From: an uncultured Opitutia bacterium
GTDB lineage: Bacteria > Verrucomicrobiota > Verrucomicrobiia > Opitutales > Opitutaceae
Assembly: GCA_903881475.1 (NCBI GenBank)
Contig: CAIRTK010000011.1
Location: 1 to 64,000, forward strand
Direction: 5' to 3'
Length of the DNA stretch: 64,000 bases
The position numbers and the translations under genes are program-made. Under the pieces are notes generated by a model. The model searched no databases and was not told the origin of the DNA. It saw only the letters and a list, made by a program, of their open reading frames with translations. This document shows, piece by piece, positions 7,975-19,650 of this stretch (position 1 is the first letter of the stretch; each line of letters starts with the position of its first letter).

Positions 7975-9111
7975 CTACCCGCGGACAAAGCCCAGGTCGA
8001 GCGGCGTGACGACGATGCGGCCGCTGCGCGACGTGAGCTTCACCCCGCCTCCACACGGCACGATCGACACCACCTCGTTGAAATCACGCGGGATCGCGGC
8101 GACCGCGAGGATATGAGCGACGCGCAGGGGTTTGCCCGGCGACAGGGTCACTGCCGTCGGCGCGCCGGCCCGGTTCAGGGAGTTGGCCTTCGCCGATTCC
8201 GCGAGCCCGAGATGATAGAATGCCGTCACGTCCTCGACCCCGAGCACGTTCACGTGCCGGCCGTTCCAGGGCGGGTAATGGCGTCCCCCGTTGGAAAACC
8301 AAAGGATCGTCTCCCGGAGGACCCGGGGGTCCTTGATGACGAAGAATGCATAGCCGGACCCCGGCAGGGAAACCGCGCTCCACGCAAAGGGCAGACTCGC
8401 GTCACTGACCAGCTCCACCAATTCCTCATAACCGCGTCGCACCGGAAAGCGACTGATGTCCGCCGTGCTGCCATCGCGGGCGGGCACGCGCTTCAGCGAG
8501 GAGAAGGTCGCACCGGGTTTGAGATGGGAATACCCCCGGGCCTCGGGCTGCTCCCATGCCACCGGCACCACGTGGCCGCGCTTGAACGCACTCGTCGAAA
8601 TGTACCCGGCGCCCGGCTCGTCCGGAAAGCGCAGCATCGGGTGCGTGCCGACCGGCATCGGTCCGCGGAAGCCGGACAGCACATGCTCGCAGTAAACCGC
8701 CGTCTGCCCGTCGCGCAGGATCAGGCGCTTGTCCACCCGCCCGCGGCGCGCGCTCACCTGCATCGAGGCATGAAGGCACAGGGCATCGCCCGCGCGGTCC
8801 AGCGAGCGGAAGGTCCAGTCGCGGTTGGCCGTCTCGCCATGCGGCGGGTGGCGCTCGCCGCGGAAAGGCGCGGCGTTGCCGCCGAACGGCGCACAAAAGA
8901 AATCACCCCGCAGAACTTTCAGCATGGTGGGCGTGCCGGGCAACGGTTCCTTCGTCCAGGGGGCGATGGCGAAGGGCTGCACGACCCGCCGGCACAGCTG
9001 GAATTCCACGGGGCCCAGCTGGCCGCCGGTCCGGGTGAGGAAAGCCTTCACCCGGTTGCTCGCGAAGCTCCAGCCCGGCTGGCCGGCATTCGTTTTGAGG
9101 GAGGGTTTCAT
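7975..9111 (-). CDS. Galactose-mutarotase-like protein at the end of the BMC operon
   Basis: 378 residues. No catalytic signature is decisive, but the beta-rich layout and motifs such as PVGTHPMLRFPDEPGAG, PFAWSAVSLPGSGYAFFVIKDPR and WNGRHVNVLGVEDVTAFYHLG resemble aldose-1-epimerase/DUF4432-type sugar mutarotases. The gene is on the same strand as the microcompartment genes, 68 bp after the aldolase stop and separated from it by a palindromic repeat. A role in presenting the correct sugar anomer would fit the locus but is inference. It could equally be a structural sugar-binding protein. Confidence 0.55.
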   Translation of the reverse strand: MKPSLKTNAGQPGWSFASNRVKAFLTRTGGQLGPVEFQLCRRVVQPFAIAPWTKEPLPGTPTMLKVLRGDFFCAPFGGNAAPFRGERHPPHGETANRDWTFRSLDRAGDALCLHASMQVSARRGRVDKRLILRDGQTAVYCEHVLSGFRGPMPVGTHPMLRFPDEPGAGYISTSAFKRGHVVPVAWEQPEARGYSHLKPGATFSSLKRVPARDGSTADISRFPVRRGYEELVELVSDASLPFAWSAVSLPGSGYAFFVIKDPRVLRETILWFSNGGRHYPPWNGRHVNVLGVEDVTAFYHLGLAESAKANSLNRAGAPTAVTLSPGKPLRVAHILAVAAIPRDFNEVVSIVPCGGGVKLTSRSGRIVVTPLDLGFVRG

Positions 9112-9179: not shown

Positions 9180-10136
9180 CTACGTTTTAGCCGGAGCGTT
9201 CACCGCGGCGGCGCGGAAGTCGCCGGGGGCGCACAGATCACAGTCCTTCGTGCCAAGCCGGGCGTCGTCCATGCCGAGCTTCTGGCGGATGGCGATCAGC
9301 TCCTTGAGCTTCGCCGGGCCGAACGAGTGCAGGCCGCTGCCGAGCTGCGACGCGATCCAGACGGTTTTGCAGTACGCGTCGATGTTCTCCATCTTCCAAT
9401 ACGCGTCCTCCGCATCGTTGCCCCACGTGATCACCCCGTGGTTCTGCATGAGGACGACCTGATGGTCCACGCCGACATGGCCGACTGCGTTGGCGTTCTC
9501 AGGCGTGCCCGGCGTCTGGTACTCGGCCAGGCCGATCTTCCCGATGAAGACCTCCGCCTCAGGAATCAGGCACGGCGGCGGGACGACCGAGGCCACGGCG
9601 AACGCGGTTGCATGCGGCGGGTGGGCGTGTACGCACGCGCGAGCCTTCGGCTGGCGCTTCATGATCCCGAGATGGGTCAGCGCCTCACTCGTCCGCTTCT
9701 TCGTGCCCGCGACTTGGCGGCCTTCCAGATCGATCAGGCACATATCGGACGGCTGCATGAAACCCTTCGAGATCAGCGTCGGCGTGCAGAGAACAAGTTC
9801 GTCGCTCACCCGCACGGTAATGTTGCCGCCATTGCCATCGACGTAGTCCTTCTCCCACATCCGCCGGCCGATGTCGCACATCTTGGCCTTGATCGCCTCA
9901 AGGGCGGGCGAATGGAAGAATTTCTCGATCGAAGCGGGATTATTCAGGTCCACCGCATGAGCACAGCCGCAGTCGGCCTTGGCCGCAGCGAGGGAGGCTG
10001 GGCGGGCGGGAAGGCGGCGGCTGCGCAGGAGGTCGCGCGCCGACGGCGTGAGGATCGCGTCGGCCGGAATCGAGTCGGGGCCGGCGCCCGAGCGCAGCAG
10101 CTGTTCGACATCCGCGGCAGTGATGACCTTTCGCAT
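9180..10136 (-). CDS. Class II aldolase/adducin-family protein, microcompartment-associated
   Basis: About 318 residues from the ATG at 10136 (the frame also allows a TTG at 10157). The C-terminal ~220 residues are a zinc class II aldolase: GNGGNITVRV phosphate loop, HAHPPHATAFA and NHGVITWG zinc-ligand histidines, and the candidate catalytic Glu in PEAEVFIGKIG. Such enzymes (FucA/RhaD type) cleave fuculose- or rhamnulose-1-phosphate to DHAP and lactaldehyde, the core reaction of PVM compartments. The ~90-residue N-terminal extension (ITAADVEQLLRSG... then LTPSARDLLRSR, then CGCAH) is absent from cytosolic FucA and could be a cargo-targeting or metal-binding module. The C-terminus also has a CDLC motif. 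It lies downstream of the three BMC-P genes. Confidence 0.85.
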   Translation of the reverse strand: MRKVITAADVEQLLRSGAGPDSIPADAILTPSARDLLRSRRLPARPASLAAAKADCGCAHAVDLNNPASIEKFFHSPALEAIKAKMCDIGRRMWEKDYVDGNGGNITVRVSDELVLCTPTLISKGFMQPSDMCLIDLEGRQVAGTKKRTSEALTHLGIMKRQPKARACVHAHPPHATAFAVASVVPPPCLIPEAEVFIGKIGLAEYQTPGTPENANAVGHVGVDHQVVLMQNHGVITWGNDAEDAYWKMENIDAYCKTVWIASQLGSGLHSFGPAKLKELIAIRQKLGMDDARLGTKDCDLCAPGDFRAAAVNAPAKT

Positions 10137-10278: not shown

Positions 10279-10572
10279 TCATTTGGGCGGTTGGTGAAAG
10301 ACTTCGTCGATAATGGCGGCGCAGTAGGCGTCCACCGGCGTCGGGCCGGTGAAGGGCTTGGAGGCCTCCGAGCCCTCCGTGAAACCCACGATGCTCCCCA
10401 CCCCGGCACCGAGCGCATCGTAGACCACGAGTCCCGCGTCGGAAGGCTGAGGGGCCGCCGGCTTCGCGTACTTCGCCGTGTTCCAGGGCTGCACGAGCAG
10501 GAAGCGCCCGCCGAGGTAGGCAGGATCCTGGCGACTGAGGGTGACTTTGCCGATGACGTGACCGAGGCGCAT
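10279..10572 (-). CDS. BMC-P shell vertex protein (EutN/CcmL family) 1
   Basis: 97 residues with the pentamer signature GHVIGKVTLSRQDP...GGRFLLVQPW and a C-terminal VDAYCAAIIDEVFH. EutN/CcmL pentamers cap the twelve vertices of a microcompartment shell. The middle carries a short insert (NTAKYAKPAAPQPSD) and the GAGVGSIVGFTEGSEA loop lines the expected pentamer channel. The gene starts 3 bp after the stop of the next BMC-P gene. Three different pentamer genes in one locus is the pattern seen in PVM-type compartments. Confidence 0.88.
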   Translation of the reverse strand: MRLGHVIGKVTLSRQDPAYLGGRFLLVQPWNTAKYAKPAAPQPSDAGLVVYDALGAGVGSIVGFTEGSEASKPFTGPTPVDAYCAAIIDEVFHQPPK

Positions 10573-10575
10573 GGT

Positions 10576-10839
10576 TCAGGGAGCGGCGTCGAGGATGGCG
10601 ATGACGGAATTACGGAGCGGCGAATGTTCGTCGCCGACATGGGCGCGAACCGCAGCGCCATCCGTTGAGACCAGCACGCGCTGATGCTGGCCGGCCCCGT
10701 GCCGGTCGAGCGCGAGGACCGGGGCGCCCTCCGCCCCGCCATGCTCATTGAGCGGCTGGCAGATGACTGTGCGGCAGCCGTGCATGCTGGGGTGGCACAC
10801 GGTCGAGACGATCACTCCGTCAATGCGGGCAAGGAGCAT
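10576..10839 (-). CDS. BMC-P shell vertex protein (EutN/CcmL family) 2
   Basis: 87 residues, the most divergent of the three pentamer proteins. It keeps the MLLARIDGVIVSTVCHPSMHGCRTVICQPL N-terminal beta motif, the VLALDRHGAG turn and a C-terminal NSVIAILD. It has three cysteines or histidines near the N-terminus (CHPSMHGC) not seen in its paralogues. It is followed after 3 bp by BMC-P 1 and preceded by a palindromic repeat that separates it from BMC-P 3. Confidence 0.82.
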   Translation of the reverse strand: MLLARIDGVIVSTVCHPSMHGCRTVICQPLNEHGGAEGAPVLALDRHGAGQHQRVLVSTDGAAVRAHVGDEHSPLRNSVIAILDAAP

Positions 10840-10953: not shown

Positions 10954-11277
10954 TCATTTCTTCGTGGCCTTGGTTTCGGGGAAGATCGTCCGGTTGAGCA
11001 CATCGACGGCATCGACGATGCCCACGACCACGGCGTCCACCGGCAGCGACTGCATACCCGCGGCCTGCCGCGCCGAGCTGCCCTGGCAGAACAGGACGGT
11101 CTCGCCCTGTCCCGCGCCCAGCGAGTCCACGGCGACCACCGTATTGGCGCCCGGGCGGAACTGGGCGGGATTGGCTTCGTCCACGAGCAGCGGACGCAGC
11201 AGCAGGAGCTTCCGCCCCTGCATCGCCTCGTCCTTCTTGGTCGAGACGACGTTGCCGATGACACGTGCGAGGAGCAT
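10954..11277 (-). CDS. BMC-P shell vertex protein (EutN/CcmL family) 3
   Basis: 107 residues, the most canonical pentamer protein here: MLLARVIGNVVSTKKDEAM, GRKLLLLRPL, VAVDSLGAGQGETVLFCQGSSAR and VDAVVVGIVDAVDV all match EutN/CcmL. The start at 11277 follows the BMC-H stop (11285) by 7 bp, so it is likely coupled to the hexamer genes. The frame is open upstream of 11277, but that stretch overlaps the preceding gene out of frame. Expected to form pentamers at shell vertices. Confidence 0.9.
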   Translation of the reverse strand: MLLARVIGNVVSTKKDEAMQGRKLLLLRPLLVDEANPAQFRPGANTVVAVDSLGAGQGETVLFCQGSSARQAAGMQSLPVDAVVVGIVDAVDVLNRTIFPETKATKK

Positions 11278-11284
11278 GGCGGGG

Positions 11285-11569
11285 TTATTTGGCGGACTTG
11301 GACAGGACGGCGGCGACGTCGTCGTGCGGGCGGGCGATGACCTGCACGCTGACGACCTCGCCGGCGAGGCGGGCGGCCTGGGCGCCGGCATCGGTGGCGG
11401 CCTTCACGGCGGCGACGTCACCAGTGACGACCGCGCTGACCAGCGCGTGGCCGACTTGGCGGATGGGGCCAGCGAGGACGACATTGGCTGACTTCAGCAT
11501 GGCGTCGGTGCCGGCGATGAGGGCTGCAAGGCCCCGGGTTTCGAGGAGACCAATGGCTTTCTGGGACAT
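11285..11569 (-). CDS. BMC-H shell hexamer protein 1
   Basis: 94 residues with one BMC domain: [47 protein letters not shown] and VVSVQVIARPHDDV. The strand that lines the hexamer pore reads QVGHALVSAVV instead of the usual GGG/GSG, placing a His at the predicted pore and suggesting a different permeability from its neighbours. The start is set at 11569 (MSQKAIGL); upstream codons are repeat-like. Confidence 0.9.
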   Translation of the reverse strand: MSQKAIGLLETRGLAALIAGTDAMLKSANVVLAGPIRQVGHALVSAVVTGDVAAVKAATDAGAQAARLAGEVVSVQVIARPHDDVAAVLSKSAK

Positions 11570-11607: not shown

Positions 11608-11898
11608 TCAGCCCGTGGTGGCGCCGATCCATTTGCCGAGCTGACCGAGGTCCTCATGCGGGCGCGGGATGACCTGCACGCTGATGACCTCGCCGACCTT
11701 GGCTGCGGCCTCGGCGCCGGCGTCGAGGGCGGCCTTCACAGCGGCGACGTCGCCGCGAAAAAAAGCGGTGACATAGCCGGAGCCGATCTGCTCCCAGCCG
11801 GTCATCGTGACGCTGGCGGCCTTGAGGGCCGCGTCGGACGCTTCGAGAAGGGCGCAAAAGCCCTTCGTTTCAATCATGCCTAGTGCTGCTTGGCTCAT
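11608..11898 (-). CDS. BMC-H shell hexamer protein 2
   Basis: 96 residues, single BMC domain: [26 protein letters not shown], the pore strand [29 protein letters not shown] and [14 protein letters not shown]. The GSG pore is the canonical small-polar type of PduA-like hexamers. The C-terminus ([13 protein letters not shown]) is a short hydrophobic tail. The gap to BMC-H 1 is 38 bp and to BMC-H 3 is 72 bp. Confidence 0.92.
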
Positions 11899-11970: not shown

Positions 11971-12240
11971 TCATAATCCGACCTGCTTGAGCAGACCGGT
12001 GTGGGGCCGGGCGATGACGTGGGAGCAGACAAGCTCGCCGACGCGCTTGGCGGCGTCGGCGCCGGCATCGACGGCGGCCTTGACGCTGCCGACATCGCCC
12101 GTGACGACGACGGTGATGAAGCCGCCGCCGATCTGGATCGAGCGACCGAGGGTGACATTGGCCGCCTTGACCATGGCGTCGCTGGCTTCGACGCTGCCGA
12201 CATAGCCGCGGGTTTCTACCATTCCGATGGAATCATTCAT
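11971..12240 (-). CDS. BMC-H shell hexamer protein 3
   Basis: 89 residues, single BMC domain: SIGMVETRGYVGSVEASDAMVKAANV, pore strand QIGGGFITVVVTGDVGSVKAAVDAGADAA and LVCSHVIARPHTGL. The GGG pore is canonical. Together with BMC-H 1 and 2 it gives three different pores in one shell. The 72-bp gap after it (11899-11970) is AT-richer and contains GAATTT/CGGATTTT units of the dispersed repeat. Confidence 0.92.
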   Translation of the reverse strand: MNDSIGMVETRGYVGSVEASDAMVKAANVTLGRSIQIGGGFITVVVTGDVGSVKAAVDAGADAAKRVGELVCSHVIARPHTGLLKQVGL

Positions 12241-12288: not shown

Positions 12289-12930
12289 TCAGATCCTGGT
12301 CAGGATTTGGGCCACGCCCTCGCTGGGGCGGGCGATGACAAAGGCAGAAATGAGCTTGCCGACCGACTCGGCGGCGGCGCGGCCGGCGCCAACGGCGGCA
12401 GTAACGGCGGCGACATCACCCTCGAAGATCACGGTGATGTAGCCACCGCCGAGTTTTTCCTTGGCGATGACGCTGACGCCGGCGGCCTTGCAGGCGGCGT
12501 CGGTGGCCGCGGTGACGGCGGTGAAGCCCTGCGTCTCGATCAAGCCGAGCGCCTCGGGAGTGTTGTTTTTTTCAGTCATGGGATGGGCCCGGCGTCCGGG
12601 AATAAAGACAACGTTCTGTTCGAGCAAAGGCTGGTACTCCGGTGGGCTCTCGATCACGCCCCATGCGCCGGCATCGGGCGAATCGAGGACCTCCCCGGTG
12701 AAGGAGACCTTCATTTCCGCCGCGAGCCGCCGCGCGGATTCGAGCGCAATGGCCACGGAGGCCGAGTCGCCCGTCAGCTTGAGGAACAGCCCGTAGTAGT
12801 CGTTGAGTTCCGCCTGCAGCACCTGCACGAGCGCCGCCTTCTCCACGCGGTCGAGCACGACCAGAGCGGCGCCGAGCGAGTGGATCTCGAGCAGGGCGAC
12901 GGCGGGTTTCCTGAGGGTGGCGGCGGGCAT
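12289..12930 (-). CDS. Double-BMC-domain shell protein (BMC-T-like) with a divergent first domain
   Basis: 213 residues in one uninterrupted frame. Residues ~9-80 form a divergent BMC domain (AVALLEIHSLGAALVVLDRVEKAALV...LKLTGDSASVAIALE), where the usual GGG pore strand reads NDYYGLFLKL. A ~35-residue linker (ESPPEYQPLLEQNVVF) follows. Residues ~125-213 form a canonical BMC domain (ALGLIETQGFTAV, KLGGGYITVIFEGDVAAV, LISAFVIARPSEGV). Two BMC domains in one chain suggest a trimeric pseudohexamer. An internal ATG at 12579 could also make the second domain alone as a BMC-H; no strong Shine-Dalgarno is seen there. The start is 9 bp after the preceding gene's stop. Confidence 0.85.
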   Translation of the reverse strand: MPAATLRKPAVALLEIHSLGAALVVLDRVEKAALVQVLQAELNDYYGLFLKLTGDSASVAIALESARRLAAEMKVSFTGEVLDSPDAGAWGVIESPPEYQPLLEQNVVFIPGRRAHPMTEKNNTPEALGLIETQGFTAVTAATDAACKAAGVSVIAKEKLGGGYITVIFEGDVAAVTAAVGAGRAAAESVGKLISAFVIARPSEGVAQILTRI

Positions 12931-12939
12931 GGGGCATGG

Positions 12940-13785
12940 TCAAAGCTTCGCGGCGGTCGCGCGGAGAAAATCGCGGAGCACGAGTGTCTCGGAGACATTG
13001 TCGCTTTCGTTGCAGTGCTCCCAGTCGATCCAGATGTACTCGACGCCGATCCAGCCGCGGTAACCGGCCTTCGCCATGGCCGCCAGCATCCGGGGGTAAT
13101 CGATCGTGTTCTGCTGGAAGTTGCACTGCAGGCGCCCGCGGCAGGCCCCGCGCATGTGGACATGGCTCGCATGCCGGACCAGCGGCTCGATGCTGCGGTC
13201 GGCAATGCCGGCGCGCGTGAAATGCGTGTAATCGAGCGTCAGGGTCAGGCCCGGGACCCGCCGCACGAGGTCGGCGGTTTCCTCGGGCGTGGTGACGATC
13301 GAGCCCACGTGCGCCTCAGTGCCGAACACCAGTCCGGCCGCCCGGCTCTGCTCGACCCGCCAGGCGAGCTCGGTGGCGGAACGCGCGAGCGAGGCGTCGC
13401 GGCCCTCCTCGGCAAAGACGACGCCGGGGAGCGTGGTGACATGGCGGGAGCCAACGGCCGCGGCGTACTCCAGCGTCCGCAGGAACGAGTCGCGCGCCTG
13501 GCGGCGGCGGCGGGCGTCCGGCTGGTTGATGGCGAAGGGCGTGAAGTCGGGCGCCAGCTGCAGGAACACGTCGGCGGCCGCGAGGCCGCGGTCCGCGAGG
13601 ACGCGCTTCAGCTTGCGCGCGCTGGCTGCGGGACGCTTGAACTCGTTCGAGGGCCAGAGGTGCGAGCGCCCCTCAAACAGGCCGAGGTCGACCCCGGTGA
13701 AGCCGAGGATGGCGATGAGGTCCAGCGCGTGGGCGTGGCTCAGGAGCGGAAAGGTAAAATCGGCGCAGGCAAATTTTGCTTTCAT
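12940..13785 (-). CDS. Sugar phosphate isomerase/epimerase-like TIM-barrel protein
   Basis: 281 residues of the xylose-isomerase-like TIM-barrel (AP endonuclease 2) superfamily: FACADFTFPLLSHAHALDLIAILGFTGVDLGLFEG at the N-terminus, metal-ligand candidates in FGTEAHVGSI, TLDYTHFTRAGI, SHVHMRGACRGRLQ and GWIGVEYIWIDW. These proteins usually isomerise, epimerise or dehydrate keto-sugars or inositols. The ATG overlaps the SDR stop (ATGA) and the stop is 9 bp before the BMC-T-like gene, so it is tightly coupled to the shell genes. Substrate unknown. Confidence 0.8.
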   Translation of the reverse strand: MKAKFACADFTFPLLSHAHALDLIAILGFTGVDLGLFEGRSHLWPSNEFKRPAASARKLKRVLADRGLAAADVFLQLAPDFTPFAINQPDARRRRQARDSFLRTLEYAAAVGSRHVTTLPGVVFAEEGRDASLARSATELAWRVEQSRAAGLVFGTEAHVGSIVTTPEETADLVRRVPGLTLTLDYTHFTRAGIADRSIEPLVRHASHVHMRGACRGRLQCNFQQNTIDYPRMLAAMAKAGYRGWIGVEYIWIDWEHCNESDNVSETLVLRDFLRATAAKL

Positions 13786-14627
13786 GGGGTTGAGGATTTT
13801 TTCTGAAAGGCGGTCGGGCCGGTGCACTGCCACTCCGCCGCCGTGAGGTAACCGCAGTCGACCGTGAGCGAGGTGCCGGTCACGCCGGCGGAATCCTCGC
13901 AGCTGAAGTAGAGGATGGATTTGGCCACATCGAGGGGCGAGAGCGAGACGCCCATGGGCACGCGCCGCAGTCGCTCGGCCAGCGCGGCCGACGGATCGGG
14001 CCGGACGTTGAGGTGTTCCCAGAGCATCGGGGTCTCGGTGATGCCGGGGCAGACGCAGTTGCAGCGGATGCCGTGGGCCGCGTAGTCGAGCGCGATCGAG
14101 CGCGTGAGGCCCAGGATGGCGTGCTTGGTCGTGGTATAGACGGGGGTGCGGGCCTGGCCGACGAAGCTGCTGATGGAGCCGACATTGACGACGTAACCCC
14201 GGCGGGCCGCCTGCAGCAGCGGGAACGCGTGTTTGAAGGCGAAGAACATCGACTTCACATTGACGCCCATGACGCGGTCCCACTGCGCCTCGGAATAGGT
14301 GTGCAGGTCGCCGATCTCGACCATGCCGGCGTTGTTGACCAAGATATCGAGGCGGCCGAAGGCCTTCACGGTGGAGGCGATGGACTGAGCCACCTCCGCC
14401 TCGGAGCTGACGTCGCACGCCAGCGCGAGGGCAGCGCCGGGGTTCCGGCGATTGATGCGGGCCGCGATCTTGCGGCCGAGCTCGAGCCGGCGGCCCACGA
14501 CCGCAACCTGGGCGCCCTCCTGCGCGAAGAGTTCCGCCGCCGCCTCACCGATACCCGAAGTGGCGCCGCTGATCCAGGCGACACGGCCATCCAGCCGGCC
14601 GGGAGCTTTGGAAAGTTTGGTTTTCAT
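13782..14627 (-). CDS. SDR-family NAD(P)-dependent oxidoreductase
   Basis: 281 residues with a classical short-chain dehydrogenase signature: SGATSGIGEAAAEL cofactor loop, NNAG at about residue 100, catalytic Ser in VGSISS and YTTTK, and CPGITETPM. The long C-terminal tail (YLTAAEWQCTGPTAFQKK) is unusual. VVGRR after beta-2 is compatible with NADP preference, but this is not decisive. It overlaps the TIM-barrel gene and lies 12 bp after the hydroxyacid dehydrogenase. It probably oxidises or reduces a sugar or sugar-acid intermediate of the compartment pathway. Confidence 0.88.
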   Translation of the reverse strand: MKTKLSKAPGRLDGRVAWISGATSGIGEAAAELFAQEGAQVAVVGRRLELGRKIAARINRRNPGAALALACDVSSEAEVAQSIASTVKAFGRLDILVNNAGMVEIGDLHTYSEAQWDRVMGVNVKSMFFAFKHAFPLLQAARRGYVVNVGSISSFVGQARTPVYTTTKHAILGLTRSIALDYAAHGIRCNCVCPGITETPMLWEHLNVRPDPSAALAERLRRVPMGVSLSPLDVAKSILYFSCEDSAGVTGTSLTVDCGYLTAAEWQCTGPTAFQKKSSTP

Positions 14628-14639
14628 GTGGGCTGGGAT

Positions 14640-15680
14640 TTAAAGCCGGCAGACGCGCCGCCACTTTTCCTGAAAAGACGGTTTCTCAAACACGGCCGAG
14701 TTCACCACACCGCGCGGCTTTTTCCCGAGCGAAAGATCGACCATGCCCTGGCACGCGGCGCGGCCGATGTCGCGGAAGAGCTCGTTGGTCCACGCGATGC
14801 AGTGCGGGGCAAACAGCACGTTCTCCAACTCCGCCAGCCGCGGCGGCGCCGTCACCGGCTCCTGCGCAAAGCAGTCCAGCGCGGCGCCGGCCAGCTGGCC
14901 GGCCTTGAGGGCGTCGTAGAGCGCGGCCTCGTCCACGATCCCACCGCGCGCCGTGTTCAGCAGGTAGGCGGTGGGCCGCATGAGCGCCAGCTGCGCGGCG
15001 CCGATCAGCCCGCGCGTCTGCTCGGTCAGGGGACAGTGGATCGAAACGAAATCCGATCCGCGCATCAGTTCATCTAGCGAAACCTTTCGCGCGCCCGCCT
15101 TGGCGGCGGTCGCCTCGTCCACAAAGGGATCGAACACGAGCGGCGGGTTCATGCCCCAGTTGGCGAGGAGCTGAAGGACGGTCCGGGCGATGCCGCCGAG
15201 GCCGATCAGGCCCAGGGTGCGATCGCGGAGTTCGCTGCCCATGTAGCGCGAGCGGGCATCCCACTTTCCCGTGCGGACGAGCTGGTCCTTCGCGCGCACG
15301 TTATGGCTCAGCGCAATCATCCAGCCGACTGTCGCCTCGGCCACCGGGCGGTCCACCGCGCCCGTCGTGATGAAAACCGCCACATCCGCCGCCGTGCACG
15401 CCGGCACGTCCACCGAGTCGTAGCCCACCCCGAAACGCCCGACCGCGACGAGATCCCGGGCCTGCGACACGGTCTGCGCAGTGACCCGGGGCGTCAGGAC
15501 AATGACGCCGTTGGCACCCGTGACCTGGTCCGCGCCAATCTCGGGACGGTGCTCGTTGAACGCCGCCTGCCGGAGGTGCGGCGCCGCGCCGAGCACGGAC
15601 AGGCCGATATCCTCGTATTTCGTGCGCCCGGTGGCATCGAAGAAATCGGCCGTGAGCTTGACGTGGAAAGGTGCAGGCAT
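14640..15680 (-). CDS. D-isomer-specific 2-hydroxyacid dehydrogenase
   Basis: 346 residues from the ATG at 15680. Rossmann motif GLIGLGGIARTVL, catalytic Arg in NTARGGIVDE, Glu in CFAQEPV and His in FAPHCIAWT are in the family order (SerA/glycerate dehydrogenase type). The N-terminal catalytic half (LTPRVTAQTV, GRFGVGYDSVDV) is also intact. In this operon it could reduce or oxidise a 2-keto or 2-hydroxy acid made by the aldolase encoded 13 bp upstream, for example pyruvate/lactate or tartronate-semialdehyde-like acids; the substrate is inference. Confidence 0.87.
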   Translation of the reverse strand: MPAPFHVKLTADFFDATGRTKYEDIGLSVLGAAPHLRQAAFNEHRPEIGADQVTGANGVIVLTPRVTAQTVSQARDLVAVGRFGVGYDSVDVPACTAADVAVFITTGAVDRPVAEATVGWMIALSHNVRAKDQLVRTGKWDARSRYMGSELRDRTLGLIGLGGIARTVLQLLANWGMNPPLVFDPFVDEATAAKAGARKVSLDELMRGSDFVSIHCPLTEQTRGLIGAAQLALMRPTAYLLNTARGGIVDEAALYDALKAGQLAGAALDCFAQEPVTAPPRLAELENVLFAPHCIAWTNELFRDIGRAACQGMVDLSLGKKPRGVVNSAVFEKPSFQEKWRRVCRL

Positions 15681-15693
15681 GATGCGGAAAACT

Positions 15694-17361
15694 TCAGGCG
15701 CTCCACGCCATCGCGGGCTCCACCGCGCAGGCTTCCTCGACCACGATGCGCTCCGGTTTCGGGCCGGCATAGACCCAGATCATGCCCATCGGCGCGCCGC
15801 TCTCGTTGATGAAATAATGCACCCGGCCGCGGGGCTGCAACGCGGTGGCCTGCCCGTCCATCGTGTAGCGCCGGCCCTCGACCACACACGTGGCCTGGCC
15901 TTCGACGATGCAGATGGACTCGTCGAAGTCGTGCAGGTGCGCCGGCAGCCGTCCGCCCGGCTGAAACAGCCCGTACCCACCGCTCATCTCCAGGCCCGGC
16001 ACGAGGTCGGCATTGAAGTAGTCGATGAACGCGGCGTTGTTGCCCGGCGAGTAACGCTCCACCTTCCCCGCATAGGTGACGCGCTCGGCCCCGGGCTGCG
16101 TCCGGGTGGCCTCCGGCATGGTGCGGCGCGGGAAAAACCCGTTCACCAGCTCGCGCGCCGGATTTGACGAGGCCATCGCAATGTGAAAAACCGCCGGCTT
16201 CGCACGGGAGAGATTGGTGACGCGGTGGGCGAGGCCGCGCGGGACGGTGACATTGTCGAGCGGGCCGACCTCGTAGATCCGGCCCTCCACGTCGACGAGC
16301 GCCCGGCCCTGCAGCAGCGTGATGGACTCGGCGAAGGTGTGCCGGTGACAGGGCAGCTGGGCACCGGGCTGGAAGGTGACGAGGCCGGTGGTGAGGTTGC
16401 GCGCCTGGTTGTGCGCTCCCACCATGCAGTCGAATTGGATGCCGGGGGCGATGTCGAGCTGGGGGCCGCTGCCCCGGGCGTTCATCACCTCGGGGCGGTC
16501 CGGCCGGAATTCGGGCGGGGCGCATTTGACCGCCTGCTCCGCGGCGAGGGCGGACGGGCTGTTTTCCAGGGTGAAGCTCGCGCGGATCTGGCGGTCGCGG
16601 CCCTGGGAGCCGAGCATCTTGTGCAGGCTGCGCAGCATGAGGCTCGCATCGAGGCCGAGGCCCAGCATGGCGAAGCCCTGCTCGCGGCGTTGGGCGAGAT
16701 TGGCCTCATCGGTGGCGATGATGCCACAGTGCTTGCCGGCCTGGCGGAGGGCGTCCTTCGCCCGCCCGATCAGCTCGGCCACGCCCGGGCCCTCCCATTT
16801 TCCCGGGAAGCCGGCGGTGGAGGAGAGGTCGGCCGGGCCGAAAAAGAAAAGGTCCGAGCCCTTCACCTTCGCGAGCTCCGCGATGTTCTGCACGGCCCGC
16901 ACCGTCTCGATGATCGGCACCACGAGCACATGCGCATCCGCCTCGCCGGCGTGCTCGACGAAGCACTGGCCCCAGCACGTGGCGCGCTCGGCGCCGATGC
17001 CGCGGATGCCCGCCGGCGGATAGGTGGCCGCGGCAATGGCGGCTTCCAGCTGCAGCGGCGTCTCGATCCAGGGGATGACCACGCCGTCGGCCCCGATGTC
17101 GAGGGCGCGCTTGATGAGCGCGGGGGAATTCTCCGCCAGGCGCACCAGCACGACCGTGTCGCTGCGCACGGCGGCCCGGACGTGCTCGACGATTTCCTTC
17201 CAGTCGAGGTGGCCGTGCTCGGCGTCGACGGTCACCCAGTCGAGCCCGAGCGACACCGCCATCTCGCAGATGCTGGCCGACTCCAGCGTGATCCACAGCC
17301 CGTAGACGGGCTGCCGGGACGACAGTTTTGCGCGCAGGCGCTGGATGGCGGTGACTTTCAT
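15694..17361 (-). CDS. HpcH/HpaI-family aldolase fused to a double cupin
   Basis: 555 residues. Residues 1-265 are a class II pyruvate aldolase of the HpcH/HpaI/RhmA family: YGLWITLESASICEMAVSLGLDWVTVDAEHGHLD (catalytic His), GADGVVIPWIETP, VPIIETVRAVQNI (metal Glu) and FFFGPADLSST (metal Asp). Residues ~320-430 and ~450-550 are two cupin domains (QPGAQLPCHRHTFAES...; QPGGRLPAHLHDFDES...). Family enzymes cleave 2-keto-3-deoxy acids to pyruvate and an aldehyde. The cupins could bind the same sugar acid or isomerise it. The fusion is in frame with no repeat at the junction. First gene of the operon, divergent from the AraC regulator. Confidence 0.88.
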   Translation of the reverse strand: MKVTAIQRLRAKLSSRQPVYGLWITLESASICEMAVSLGLDWVTVDAEHGHLDWKEIVEHVRAAVRSDTVVLVRLAENSPALIKRALDIGADGVVIPWIETPLQLEAAIAAATYPPAGIRGIGAERATCWGQCFVEHAGEADAHVLVVPIIETVRAVQNIAELAKVKGSDLFFFGPADLSSTAGFPGKWEGPGVAELIGRAKDALRQAGKHCGIIATDEANLAQRREQGFAMLGLGLDASLMLRSLHKMLGSQGRDRQIRASFTLENSPSALAAEQAVKCAPPEFRPDRPEVMNARGSGPQLDIAPGIQFDCMVGAHNQARNLTTGLVTFQPGAQLPCHRHTFAESITLLQGRALVDVEGRIYEVGPLDNVTVPRGLAHRVTNLSRAKPAVFHIAMASSNPARELVNGFFPRRTMPEATRTQPGAERVTYAGKVERYSPGNNAAFIDYFNADLVPGLEMSGGYGLFQPGGRLPAHLHDFDESICIVEGQATCVVEGRRYTMDGQATALQPRGRVHYFINESGAPMGMIWVYAGPKPERIVVEEACAVEPAMAWSA

Positions 17362-17487: not shown

Positions 17488-18396
17488 ATGAGCGAAGACC
17501 CCAAAAGCTTTCACCGTTACCTCCTCGCCGACTCGAAAGACCGTGACTGGGGCATCTATGCGACCTCCGCCGGCTACGTGGCCATCGACCCCGGCGCACC
17601 GTACCCGCCGCCGGGTCACCCGAAGAGCCATGCGTTCAGCTGGGAGGAGGGCCGCCAGCTCGATGAACTCCAGGTCCACTTCATCACCCGCGGCAGCGGC
17701 ATCTTCGAGTCGGCGGCCGAGGGTGACCGGCGCCGGCGGATCGGCGCCGGCGGGGCTTTCGTCCTGTTTCCCGGCGTCTGGCACCGCTATGCGCCGCTGC
17801 CGCAGACCGGCTGGCTCGAATATTGGATCGCGCTGAAGGGCGACTACGTCGACCAGCTGCTCCGGAGGAAATTATTCTCGCCGAGCCATCCGGTGTTCAC
17901 GCCGTCGGACAGCAGTCCCCTGCTCCGGCTCTTCACGGAAGCCGTGGCCTGCCTGCGCCATCACCCGGTGGGCACGTCGCGCGTGCTCGGTTCGCTCGCC
18001 GGGCTGATCCTGGCGGAATTGCAGACAGGCACGGTGGCCGTGCCCCCGGCAGAAAACCGCACGGAACACCTCGTGCATGAAGCCAAGCTGATGCTGGGCC
18101 AGCACCTCGAGGAGGAAGTCGACCTGGAGGTCATGGCGAAAAAACTGAGCGTGGGCTACCACTGGCTGCGGCGGGCGTTCAAGCAGGAGACGGGGCAGTC
18201 GCTGCACCAGTACCGGCTGCAGCTCCGGCTCAGCCGCGCGAAGGTGCTGCTCAAGAACTCCGACGCGACGGTGGAGCAGATCGCGCAACAGACCGGGTTC
18301 GCCGACCCGTATTACTTCTCGCAGATCTTCAAGCGGAAGGCCGGTCTTCCGCCCACGAGCTGGCGGAAGACGGAAACCGGCGCCATCCCGATCTGA
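17488..18396 (+). CDS. AraC-family transcriptional regulator
   Basis: 302 residues from the ATG at 17488. The N-terminal half is a cupin-like ligand domain (FITRGSGIFESA, GGAFVLFPGVWHRYAPLP). The C-terminal ~100 residues form the double HTH: VDLEVMAKKLSVGYHWLRRAFKQETG and ATVEQIAQQTGFADPYYFSQIFKRKAGLPPTSWR. It is divergent from the microcompartment operon, so it is the obvious candidate for its sugar-responsive activator. The same frame is open far upstream, across the minus-strand aldolase-cupin gene, but that is antisense sequence. Confidence 0.88.
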   Translation: MSEDPKSFHRYLLADSKDRDWGIYATSAGYVAIDPGAPYPPPGHPKSHAFSWEEGRQLDELQVHFITRGSGIFESAAEGDRRRRIGAGGAFVLFPGVWHRYAPLPQTGWLEYWIALKGDYVDQLLRRKLFSPSHPVFTPSDSSPLLRLFTEAVACLRHHPVGTSRVLGSLAGLILAELQTGTVAVPPAENRTEHLVHEAKLMLGQHLEEEVDLEVMAKKLSVGYHWLRRAFKQETGQSLHQYRLQLRLSRAKVLLKNSDATVEQIAQQTGFADPYYFSQIFKRKAGLPPTSWRKTETGAIPI

Positions 18397-18864: not shown

Positions 18865-19650
18865 TCAGCGCCGGCGGCGGCGCACCATGGCCCCCAGCGT
18901 CAGCAGGCCGGTGCCCAGAAGCGCCCAGGTCGAGGGCTCGGGCACCGGGGTGAAGTTCAGCATCAGGTCATTTCCGCTCTGGGAAACGGAGAACTGGCCG
19001 CTGGAATTGGTAAAATTGGACTGATCGATGATGAAGGCGCTGGAGCTGAAATTGCTGATGCCCGAGCCGGTCGAGACCAGCAGCCAGGAATAGCCCTGGC
19101 CCCCGTTGAAGTTTGCCGCATTGCCCGCCTGGTTGGTGGCCGGGTTGAACGAGTAGAGGTGGATGTAGAATTCGTTGCCCGCCGTCGCCGTGATCGTGAG
19201 GCTGCCGCTGATGCTGAGCAGGCTGTAGCCGGTGCCGGCCACCCCGGCGGCGTCGGAGATGGAGAAATTCAGGCCGCCGGTGCTGAGGGTGTGCCCAAAG
19301 GTGAGCGACGTGCCCCCGCCAAAGGTCAGCGTGCCGACCGCCGGCACGTTCGCTCCGACCGCGTCATCCGCGACGGTGGCGATGCCCGGGGCCAGCAAGG
19401 CGCCGCCCTGGACGGTGAGATTGCCACCCGGTGAAAACGTCCCGAAGCCGGCGAGCGTGCCGCCGGTCAAAGTGATGGGGTTGGTGAGCGTGACACCCGT
19501 GTTCGCGGCCAGGCCGCCGCTGACGGTCACCCCGCCAGACCCGAGGGCGGAGCTGTTGCTGGCGACAATGGAGCCCGTGCTCGTGATCGTGGTGCCCCCA
19601 CCATAAGTGTTCGCACCGCTGAGAACCAGGTTACGGTAAGCGCGTTTCAT
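18865..19650 (-). CDS. PEP-CTERM protein with autotransporter-type beta repeat, probably N-terminally truncated
   Basis: 261 residues. The C-terminus carries the sorting tag PVPEPSTWALLGTGLLTLGAMVRRRRR (PEP motif, hydrophobic helix, Arg cluster). This tag directs export and processing by exosortase-type systems in EPS-producing bacteria. The N-terminal part is Gly/Thr-rich beta-helix sequence; NLVLSGANTYGGGTTITS is an autotransporter-associated beta-strand repeat. No signal peptide is seen: MKRAYR leads straight into a repeat, as if an internal deletion joined a start to the C-terminal part of a larger surface protein. It may be non-functional. Confidence 0.75.
   Translation of the reverse strand: MKRAYRNLVLSGANTYGGGTTITSTGSIVASNSSALGSGGVTVSGGLAANTGVTLTNPITLTGGTLAGFGTFSPGGNLTVQGGALLAPGIATVADDAVGANVPAVGTLTFGGGTSLTFGHTLSTGGLNFSISDAAGVAGTGYSLLSISGSLTITATAGNEFYIHLYSFNPATNQAGNAANFNGGQGYSWLLVSTGSGISNFSSSAFIIDQSNFTNSSGQFSVSQSGNDLMLNFTPVPEPSTWALLGTGLLTLGAMVRRRRR

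Follow-up and report, generated by a model that had tools for sequence, protein, structure and literature searches.

The operon and its first gene

The window, by which we mean the whole stretch of 64,000 nucleotides analysed here, carries on its minus strand at 15694..17361 a gene of 555 codons with an ATG start and an open frame, which joins an HpcH/HpaI aldolase (residues ~1-255) to a double cupin (~290-545). A preliminary description of this DNA had reported the single 555-residue frame and the fusion, both of which stand, but had overlooked that the gene lies on the minus strand, that it belongs to an operon with a microcompartment shell and that a glycoside hydrolase is co-inherited with it. 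The plus strand of 15694-17361 is interrupted by an in-frame stop and the 555-codon frame is open on the minus strand only. This is also the conserved strand, and the plus-strand frames over the interval were set aside as shadows.

The fusion is the first gene of an operon that lies entirely on the minus strand. It is followed by genes for a D-isomer-specific 2-hydroxyacid dehydrogenase (HADH, 347 amino acids, 14640..15683; PF02826, E 1.3e-55), a short-chain dehydrogenase (SDR, 281 amino acids, 13782..14627; PF13561, E 1.3e-58) and a xylose-isomerase-like TIM barrel (279 amino acids, 12940..13779; PF01261, E 4.6e-27). Homologues of these three genes were counted in 38, 19 and 18 of 52 related loci, respectively, on gene calls from a codon-usage caller made for this analysis; the counts are raw and include loci cut by contig ends. 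Compared to the PDB, all three proteins have generic relatives only. Behind the TIM barrel a tandem BMC-domain shell protein with two PF00936 stretches (BMC1, 213 amino acids, 12289..12930) opens the shell genes, which continue with the BMC-H proteins BMC2 (11971..12240), BMC3 (11608..11898) and BMC4 (11285..11569) and with three BMC-P (EutN/CcmL) proteins (10954..11277, 10576..10839 and 10279..10572). For BMC4 and for the first BMC-P protein (PF03319, E 1.9e-29) we used an internal start common to the relatives, which is an ATG in BMC4, and the second and third BMC-P proteins were recognised by alignment with relatives and canonical loci, not by Pfam. The operon closes with a class II (PF00596) aldolase at 9180..10136 (Pfam E 1.5e-46, and alignment), whose conserved N-terminal extension is, judged from its sequence, probably an encapsulation peptide.

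Further along the minus strand, at 7975..9111, a conserved protein of 378 amino acids without Pfam match is encoded; in eight Opitutaceae loci its gene follows either the shell genes or BMC1. An AraC-family regulator (17488..18396, plus strand; HTH_18 E 7.6e-21, AraC_binding E 1.3e-14) is divergent from the operon. Beyond it a repeat-rich frame on the minus strand (18865-19650) ends in what reads as a PEP-CTERM-like tail, VPEPSTWALLGTGLLTLGAMVRRRRR.

Within the fusion, residues 20-243 match HpcH_HpaI (PF03328) at E 9e-32, with 110.6 bits against a cut-off of 25. The residues H49, R74, E152 and D178, which we take to be the catalytic Arg and His and the metal Glu and Asp of HpaI, are invariant in all 53 aligned full-length rows, some of which are probably the same genome twice, as loci from the genome_contigs scan were aligned together with genomes carrying G handles. 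The C-terminal half contains two Cupin_2 stretches above the cut-off, the best at 327-392, and an AraC_binding-type cupin match at 472-534. All 53 rows have the site of cupin 1 (H339, H341, E345, H379) unchanged, and 50 of them also have an intact cupin 2 site (H475, H477, E481, H515). The aldolase motifs and the two HxH-type cupins that had been read from the sequence are thus borne out. In the three remaining rows, the Gemmatimonadota/Latescibacterota fusions L045, L046 and L047, the ligands of cupin 2 are gone and the site of cupin 1 is kept. The separate alignment of the double cupin (A2) comprised 47 rows, a subset of those available.

A structure model, which had been named as a check on the fusion, gave a two-barrel metal bicupin fold for the C-terminal half. 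Modelled alone, the double cupin reached a mean pLDDT of 94.8 and a pTM of 0.92, and each of its two barrels presents a His-x-His, a Glu and a distal His, as expected of double-domain cupins. For the whole fusion the mean pLDDT was 85, and because the pTM was 0.54 the relative placing of the two halves is uncertain in the model; the linker (~255-290) has low confidence (pLDDT 45-55).

The fusion is a real protein and widely conserved. Among the 52 related loci of the genome_contigs scan, 48 encode it at full length, with 54-93% identity over the best segment, three the aldolase half alone (L049, L050, L051) and one the double cupin alone (L053). By record title the hosts include Opitutae, many Planctomycetota and Gemmatimonadetes/Latescibacterota, and the aldolase-only L051 is from Alphaproteobacteria. 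Of 57 relatives of the window's genome (G000), 12 possess the fusion (G000-G005, G007-G011, G031), as does the closed one-contig genome G072 from a different genus. The preliminary description had named two things that would speak against the fusion, namely halves that always occur as separate genes and a misassembly or sequencing error. Given full-length copies in 48 loci from independent assemblies and in a closed genome, the former does not apply and we attach practically no probability to the latter. The separate occurrence of the halves in four loci agrees with the earlier view that each is about the size of a stand-alone family member.

Some of these records deserve a remark. In the single-cell alphaproteobacterial record L051 (6934-12974) the aldolase half adjoins a GFO/IDH/MocA oxidoreductase (Pfam) and frames that read as ABC sugar transporters, and in L053 (8926-10647, Bryobacterales) the free-standing double cupin adjoins a GntR/FCD-like regulator frame. 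L013, L015, L033 and L038 are possibly mislabelled bins: those titled Kuenenia stuttgartiensis cluster with Planctomycetaceae on the fusion tree, and the one labelled Akkermansia muciniphila has a long branch there.

Relatives of the two halves and the role of the cupins

The N-terminal half resembles the HpcH/HpaI class II pyruvate aldolases (HpaI, GarL, RhmA/YfaU). Its best PDB sequence match has an E value of 4.9e-41, and Foldseek aligns it to this family with a TM score of ~0.83-0.88 at ~24-34% identity. The listed PDB members of the family are mostly ~250-290 amino acids long and none has a double cupin, compared to 555 amino acids for the fusion. All 21 matching PDB sequences cover the N-terminal half only, so that no PDB chain spans both halves, and no description of an aldolase-double-cupin fusion was found in the literature outside subscription papers; the earlier impression of an uncharacterised architecture is confirmed to that extent. 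Family and active site suggest that this half would act as a metal-dependent class II pyruvate aldolase, releasing pyruvate and a short aldehyde from a 2-oxo-3-deoxy sugar acid. Assignments to HpaI, GarL or RhmA were rejected, as the NCBIfam equivalog cut-offs were missed (176 vs 369, 139 vs 407 and 123 vs 441 bits). Since every NCBIfam aldolase equivalog stays far below its cut-off, any substrate named here is a candidate.

The double cupin shares its two-barrel fold and its two His/His/Glu/His sites with metal bicupins such as the quercetin dioxygenase YxaG/QdoI, the oxalate decarboxylase OxdC and the ureidoglycine aminohydrolase YlbA, but it has only ~9-19% identity to them and is fused to an aldolase. 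The earlier proposal that the cupins act first on the substrate, preparing or isomerising it for the aldolase, is plausible. The fusion would then be a bifunctional catabolic enzyme with a two-metal bicupin that, tentatively, would most likely isomerise or ring-open a sugar acid for its partner. A strict coupling of aldolase and cupins is argued against by L049 and L050, in which the aldolase adjoins HADH and no cupin half was found in the locus.

The nearest folds, the quercetin dioxygenases and oxalate decarboxylases, would instead point to a quercetinase-like oxygenase or an oxidative decarboxylase that converts either what the aldolase takes up or what it releases. They superpose with Z scores of 26.5 to 23 (rmsd 2.3-3.7 over 237-251 residues), Foldseek gives E 1.1e-17, and a profile match to YxaG has E 5.2e-11. 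Unrelated bicupins score nearly as high, however, including the ureidoglycine aminohydrolase family (YlbA-type chains at Z 22-25 with 9-14% identity) and seed storage proteins, and a fold does not give an activity. Among the matches listed, quercetinases, oxalate decarboxylases, YlbA-type enzymes and seed globulins all fall within Z 22-26.5, so the bicupin fold cannot decide the chemistry, and we regard the oxygenase or decarboxylase as unlikely. KduI matched in the profile search at E 0.0013, and neither YlbA nor KduI is among the NCBIfam matches of the fusion listed within E 0.001.

The cupin half could also sense a sugar or play a structural part, regulating or oligomerising the aldolase without catalysis of its own. 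The loss of the second metal site in three of 53 rows and the three aldolases that do without cupins would fit such a role, whereas the invariance of the first metal site, the near-complete conservation of the second and the free-standing double cupin of L053, with its GntR/FCD-type neighbour, do not. We consider it decidedly improbable.

A shell without its aldehyde core

The shell genes of the window resemble the PVM (Planctomycetes-Verrucomicrobia) microcompartment for L-fucose and L-rhamnose, as its features are described in the part of PMC4207490 considered here, in possessing three BMC-H and three BMC-P proteins together with a PF00596 aldolase. In the canonical Opitutaceae locus L080 the order is PduL, BMC-H, BMC-H, AckA, BMC-H, BMC-P, AldDh, BMC-P, BMC-P, class II aldolase, LDH, and its AldDh passes the NCBIfam cut-off with 588 vs 403 bits. 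One-to-one alignments with such canonical loci were obtained for the window's shell proteins and its class II aldolase; the exception is L078, where the row used for BMC4 holds another tandem protein. AckA and a lactate/malate dehydrogenase are present in the canonical loci L078 and L080, and AckA also in L081. None of PduL, AckA, AldDh and LDH occurs within the merged loci, by which we denote those where the cassette (fusion, HADH, SDR, TIM barrel and BMC1) runs on into the rest of the shell, as in the window, L003, L005, L007, L012, L044 and L113; the closed genome G072 is merged as well.

The loss of the core extends to whole genomes. Neither a BMC-type AldDh (E up to 1e-30) nor a PTAC of the PduL type (PF06130) was found genome-wide in any of the five merged-type genomes (G000, G002, G004, G005, G008; completeness 92-100%). 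Fusion and shell lie on one contig in four of them; in G004 they lie on two, and its merged state is inferred across a contig break. The window, which belongs to G000, differs from PVM in its core, as well as in the absence of AckA and LDH from the locus and in the addition of the tandem BMC protein, the aldolase-bicupin fusion, HADH, SDR, TIM barrel and AraC regulator. As the two core features tested, AldDh and PTAC, are absent, we call the shell PVM-derived, not PVM. A DeoR-family regulator also counts among the features of PVM; the regulator divergent from the present operon is of the AraC type.

G000 contains seven other aldehyde-dehydrogenase (PF00171) matches, so aldehydes could be handled outside the shell. 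A PduP-type enzyme elsewhere in this genome was considered and rejected, as none of the seven matches the canonical BMC AldDh at E 1e-30. The match on contig C1 adjoins frames that read as proline-racemase-like, oxidoreductase-like and DHDPS-like.

A second arrangement has the cassette alone. In L006, L008, L011 and L022, four of the 12 Opitutae loci, fusion-HADH-SDR-TIM-BMC1 is followed directly by the gene for the 378-residue protein, so that a shell gene and enzymes stand away from a main locus in the manner of a satellite. Five of the 12 (L003, L005, L007, L012, L044) are merged through the class II aldolase and L009 is merged up to its contig end; the contigs of L004 and L010 end too early for either label. 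BMC1 lies directly behind the TIM barrel in every Opitutaceae locus that is not cut there. All six satellite genomes (G001, G007, G009, G010, G011, G031), where BMC1 adjoins the fusion and a canonical PVM shell lies on another contig, possess both the BMC-type AldDh and PTAC. Among the 34 BMC-positive genomes, AldDh is missing outside the merged type only in G025 (81% complete, one BMC match). A shell is present somewhere in 11 of the 12 fusion-bearing genomes; the twelfth, G003, which by identity we take to be the source of L004, has no BMC match, and the contig with its cassette breaks off behind the TIM barrel.

Satellite loci, or 'EUT modules', which extend a host compartment, are discussed in passages of PMC8217296, where the integration of a satellite into the main locus with replacement of signature enzymes is proposed for SPU6/EUT3. 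The present cassette agrees with these modules in combining a shell protein with putatively substrate-specific enzymes away from the main locus; it differs from those described there in carrying an aldolase-bicupin, in serving a PVM shell and, in its merged form, in lacking the AldDh core. The metabolosome core is given in the same source as signature enzyme, AldDh, PTAC and alcohol dehydrogenase. Of the types found in these passages, ACI, reported from Acidobacteria, pairs a class II aldolase with a hydroxyacid dehydrogenase (PF00389/02826) and keeps AldDh in a satellite, and BUF comprises loci without AldDh. The window shares the former pair of enzymes with ACI and the absence of AldDh from the locus with BUF, but the HpcH/HpaI-bicupin is in neither description, and the word cupin does not appear in the main text of PMC8217296. 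PVM-type loci in Verrucomicrobiota are reported in PMC5615132, PMC8857213, PMC12388122 and PMC8636102, the passages of which seen here do not contain the fusion.

In a quick tree of 52 fusion rows, from which L057 and L060 were left out as repeats of one genome, merged and satellite states are interleaved and require at least four changes, three of them forced by well-supported branches; rows in the trees and alignments partly repeat one genome. The class II aldolases of the seven merged rows form one clade against three canonical rows, sampled from many such loci, with a support of 100/100. This indicates a distinct lineage with conserved shell proteins. The simplest account, with its direction presumed, would be one merged core-less shell lineage that was lost several times while a canonical PVM shell served the remaining cassette.

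A protein like BMC1 was also observed beside a different aldolase. In L074 (7149-8833), L075 (5841-7557) and L076 (8253-10230), from G027, G049 and G056, it adjoins a DHDPS-type aldolase, identified by Pfam for L074 only, whose C-terminal tails resemble encapsulation peptides. These loci may represent a second pyruvate-aldolase satellite module, and pyruvate-type aldolases from two superfamilies without relation to each other thus have this type of shell protein as a neighbour. Another kind of tandem BMC protein, of 183 amino acids, adjoins a PduS-like frame, apparently of the RnfC type, in L077 (5060-6979) and L078 (6307-8343), in or near the satellite-type genomes G031 and G009.

Substrate, co-inherited hydrolase and a possible function

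The genes around the planctomycete fusions give hints towards a substrate. In L027, L030, L032 and L041 the fusion and HADH are followed by SDR and TIM barrel; L049 has these three genes with its aldolase-only copy, and L042 and L054 lack HADH. Other planctomycete loci continue after fusion and HADH with SGL/gluconolactonase-like, MR/MLE enolase-superfamily and MFS genes, and the best models for the MR/MLE and MFS proteins are galactonate dehydratase and galactonate transporter, below cut-off. A 2-oxo-3-deoxy acid is the usual substrate of the HpcH/HpaI aldolase family, and these neighbours fit a sugar-acid pathway that ends in such a compound. The cassette core, common to Planctomycetota, would then be a sugar-acid cassette led by the fusion, with HADH, SDR and TIM-barrel isomerase, and the Opitutaceae version with its own tandem BMC protein would work together with a microcompartment.

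We give an even chance to the reading that a sugar-acid aldolase-bicupin has been recruited to a core-less, PVM-derived compartment or to a satellite of the canonical PVM compartment. The window would represent the former, with a resident shell and class II aldolase but no AldDh/PduL core, and in the satellite arrangement the cassette would serve a canonical compartment elsewhere in the genome. The shell might confine the aldehyde, or the exchange of NAD(H) between HADH and SDR. Several observations count against this reading: the aldolase equivalog cut-offs are missed by far, the ends of the fusion are like those of the shell-less copies, G003 has no BMC match, L049, L050 and L051 do without cupins, the enolase-type dehydratase and the gluconolactonase were found only in loci without shell, and G004 is interrupted by a contig break.

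Some of this would also be expected if the cassette shared no more than a transcript with the shell, with the fusion and its dehydrogenases acting on a sugar acid in the cytosol and only the class II aldolase residing inside. No targeting or encapsulation-peptide-like extension is apparent on the fusion, whose ends match the planctomycete copies, no shell genes were found beside the cassette core in the Planctomycetota loci, and the class II aldolase has retained its N-terminal extension. This alternative appears somewhat unlikely, as the four satellite loci keep BMC1 behind the TIM barrel even though they have none of the other shell genes; together with the shell found in all but one of the fusion-bearing genomes, this suggests that the cassette itself needs a shell. 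In the preferred reading the fusion would lie inside the shell.

Among possible sugars, an L-rhamnose route was rejected, as L-rhamnose isomerase is absent from 11 of 12 members of the genus, G000 included. Matches to the fucose isomerase C-domain occur in all 12 members but are weak, the best in each genome reaching 30-37 bits, and gave no lead. A GH78 rhamnosidase beside the cassette is a single case (L054) and too little for a claim on rhamnose.

A hydrolase of the apiosidase family (PF13204) is associated with the cassette in two of the 52 loci, directly behind the TIM barrel in L041 and a few genes upstream of the fusion in L030. At full length it is confined among the 57 relatives to the 12 genomes with the fusion, all of which have it (E below 1e-230); in the 45 others the best match is that of G036, with 41% identity over ~470 residues. 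G006, from the same genus as the window's genome, has neither fusion nor full-length hydrolase. Among 387 Verrucomicrobiota genomes the full-length hydrolase is present in six of six with the fusion and in none of 381 without, and eight others match its catalytic part only. The co-occurrence has a Fisher p of 1.4e-12 for the 57 relatives and 2.2e-13 for the 387 genomes, values that ignore kinship and the overlap of the two sets and involve at most three genera of one family. In G000 the hydrolase (C49:18435-20519) matches PF13204 with 221 bits against a cut-off of 26.5. It can be aligned to the GH140 structures 3kzs/5msy and 8t9w, the GEPxYE stretch included, and differs from the GH140 apiosidases in being ~260 residues longer, with a C-terminal lectin/rhamnosidase-N-like part. 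By sequence it belongs to the GH140 apiosidase family and is a putative apiosidase.

Taken one step further, the locus could encode a microcompartment type absent from the passages of PMC8217296 considered: a PVM-derived shell from which the aldehyde-to-acyl-CoA core has been lost and which contains a pyruvate-aldolase/bicupin pathway in its place. Two dehydrogenases would recycle NAD(H) between them, and the apiosidase-family hydrolase would feed the pathway. The substrate would be a branched or unusual plant sugar, possibly D-apiose, in which case a dehydrated apiose acid could yield pyruvate and formaldehyde via retro-aldol steps. A search of the literature on D-apiose and apiosidases returned nothing usable, and we regard this proposal as tentative and rather unlikely as a whole.

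A lineage that keeps shell proteins and class II aldolase without AldDh and PTAC and is inherited together with another aldolase module would make the role of a shell without acyl-CoA testable, and one family offers a natural contrast between a satellite on a normal PVM compartment and the merged core-less form. Since one of the merged copies comes from a closed genome, there may be an isolate to work with. For enzymology the fusion provides a ready-made aldolase-bicupin, and it ties an orphan hydrolase subfamily to a catabolic cassette.

Two minor observations concern the surroundings of the hydrolase and of the cassette. In L104 (572-10751, G031) the hydrolase is clustered with frames that read as a PhyH-type oxygenase, heparinase/alginate-lyase-like and alpha-galactosidase-like proteins, and L030, from planctomycetes, likewise includes a PhyH gene (Pfam).
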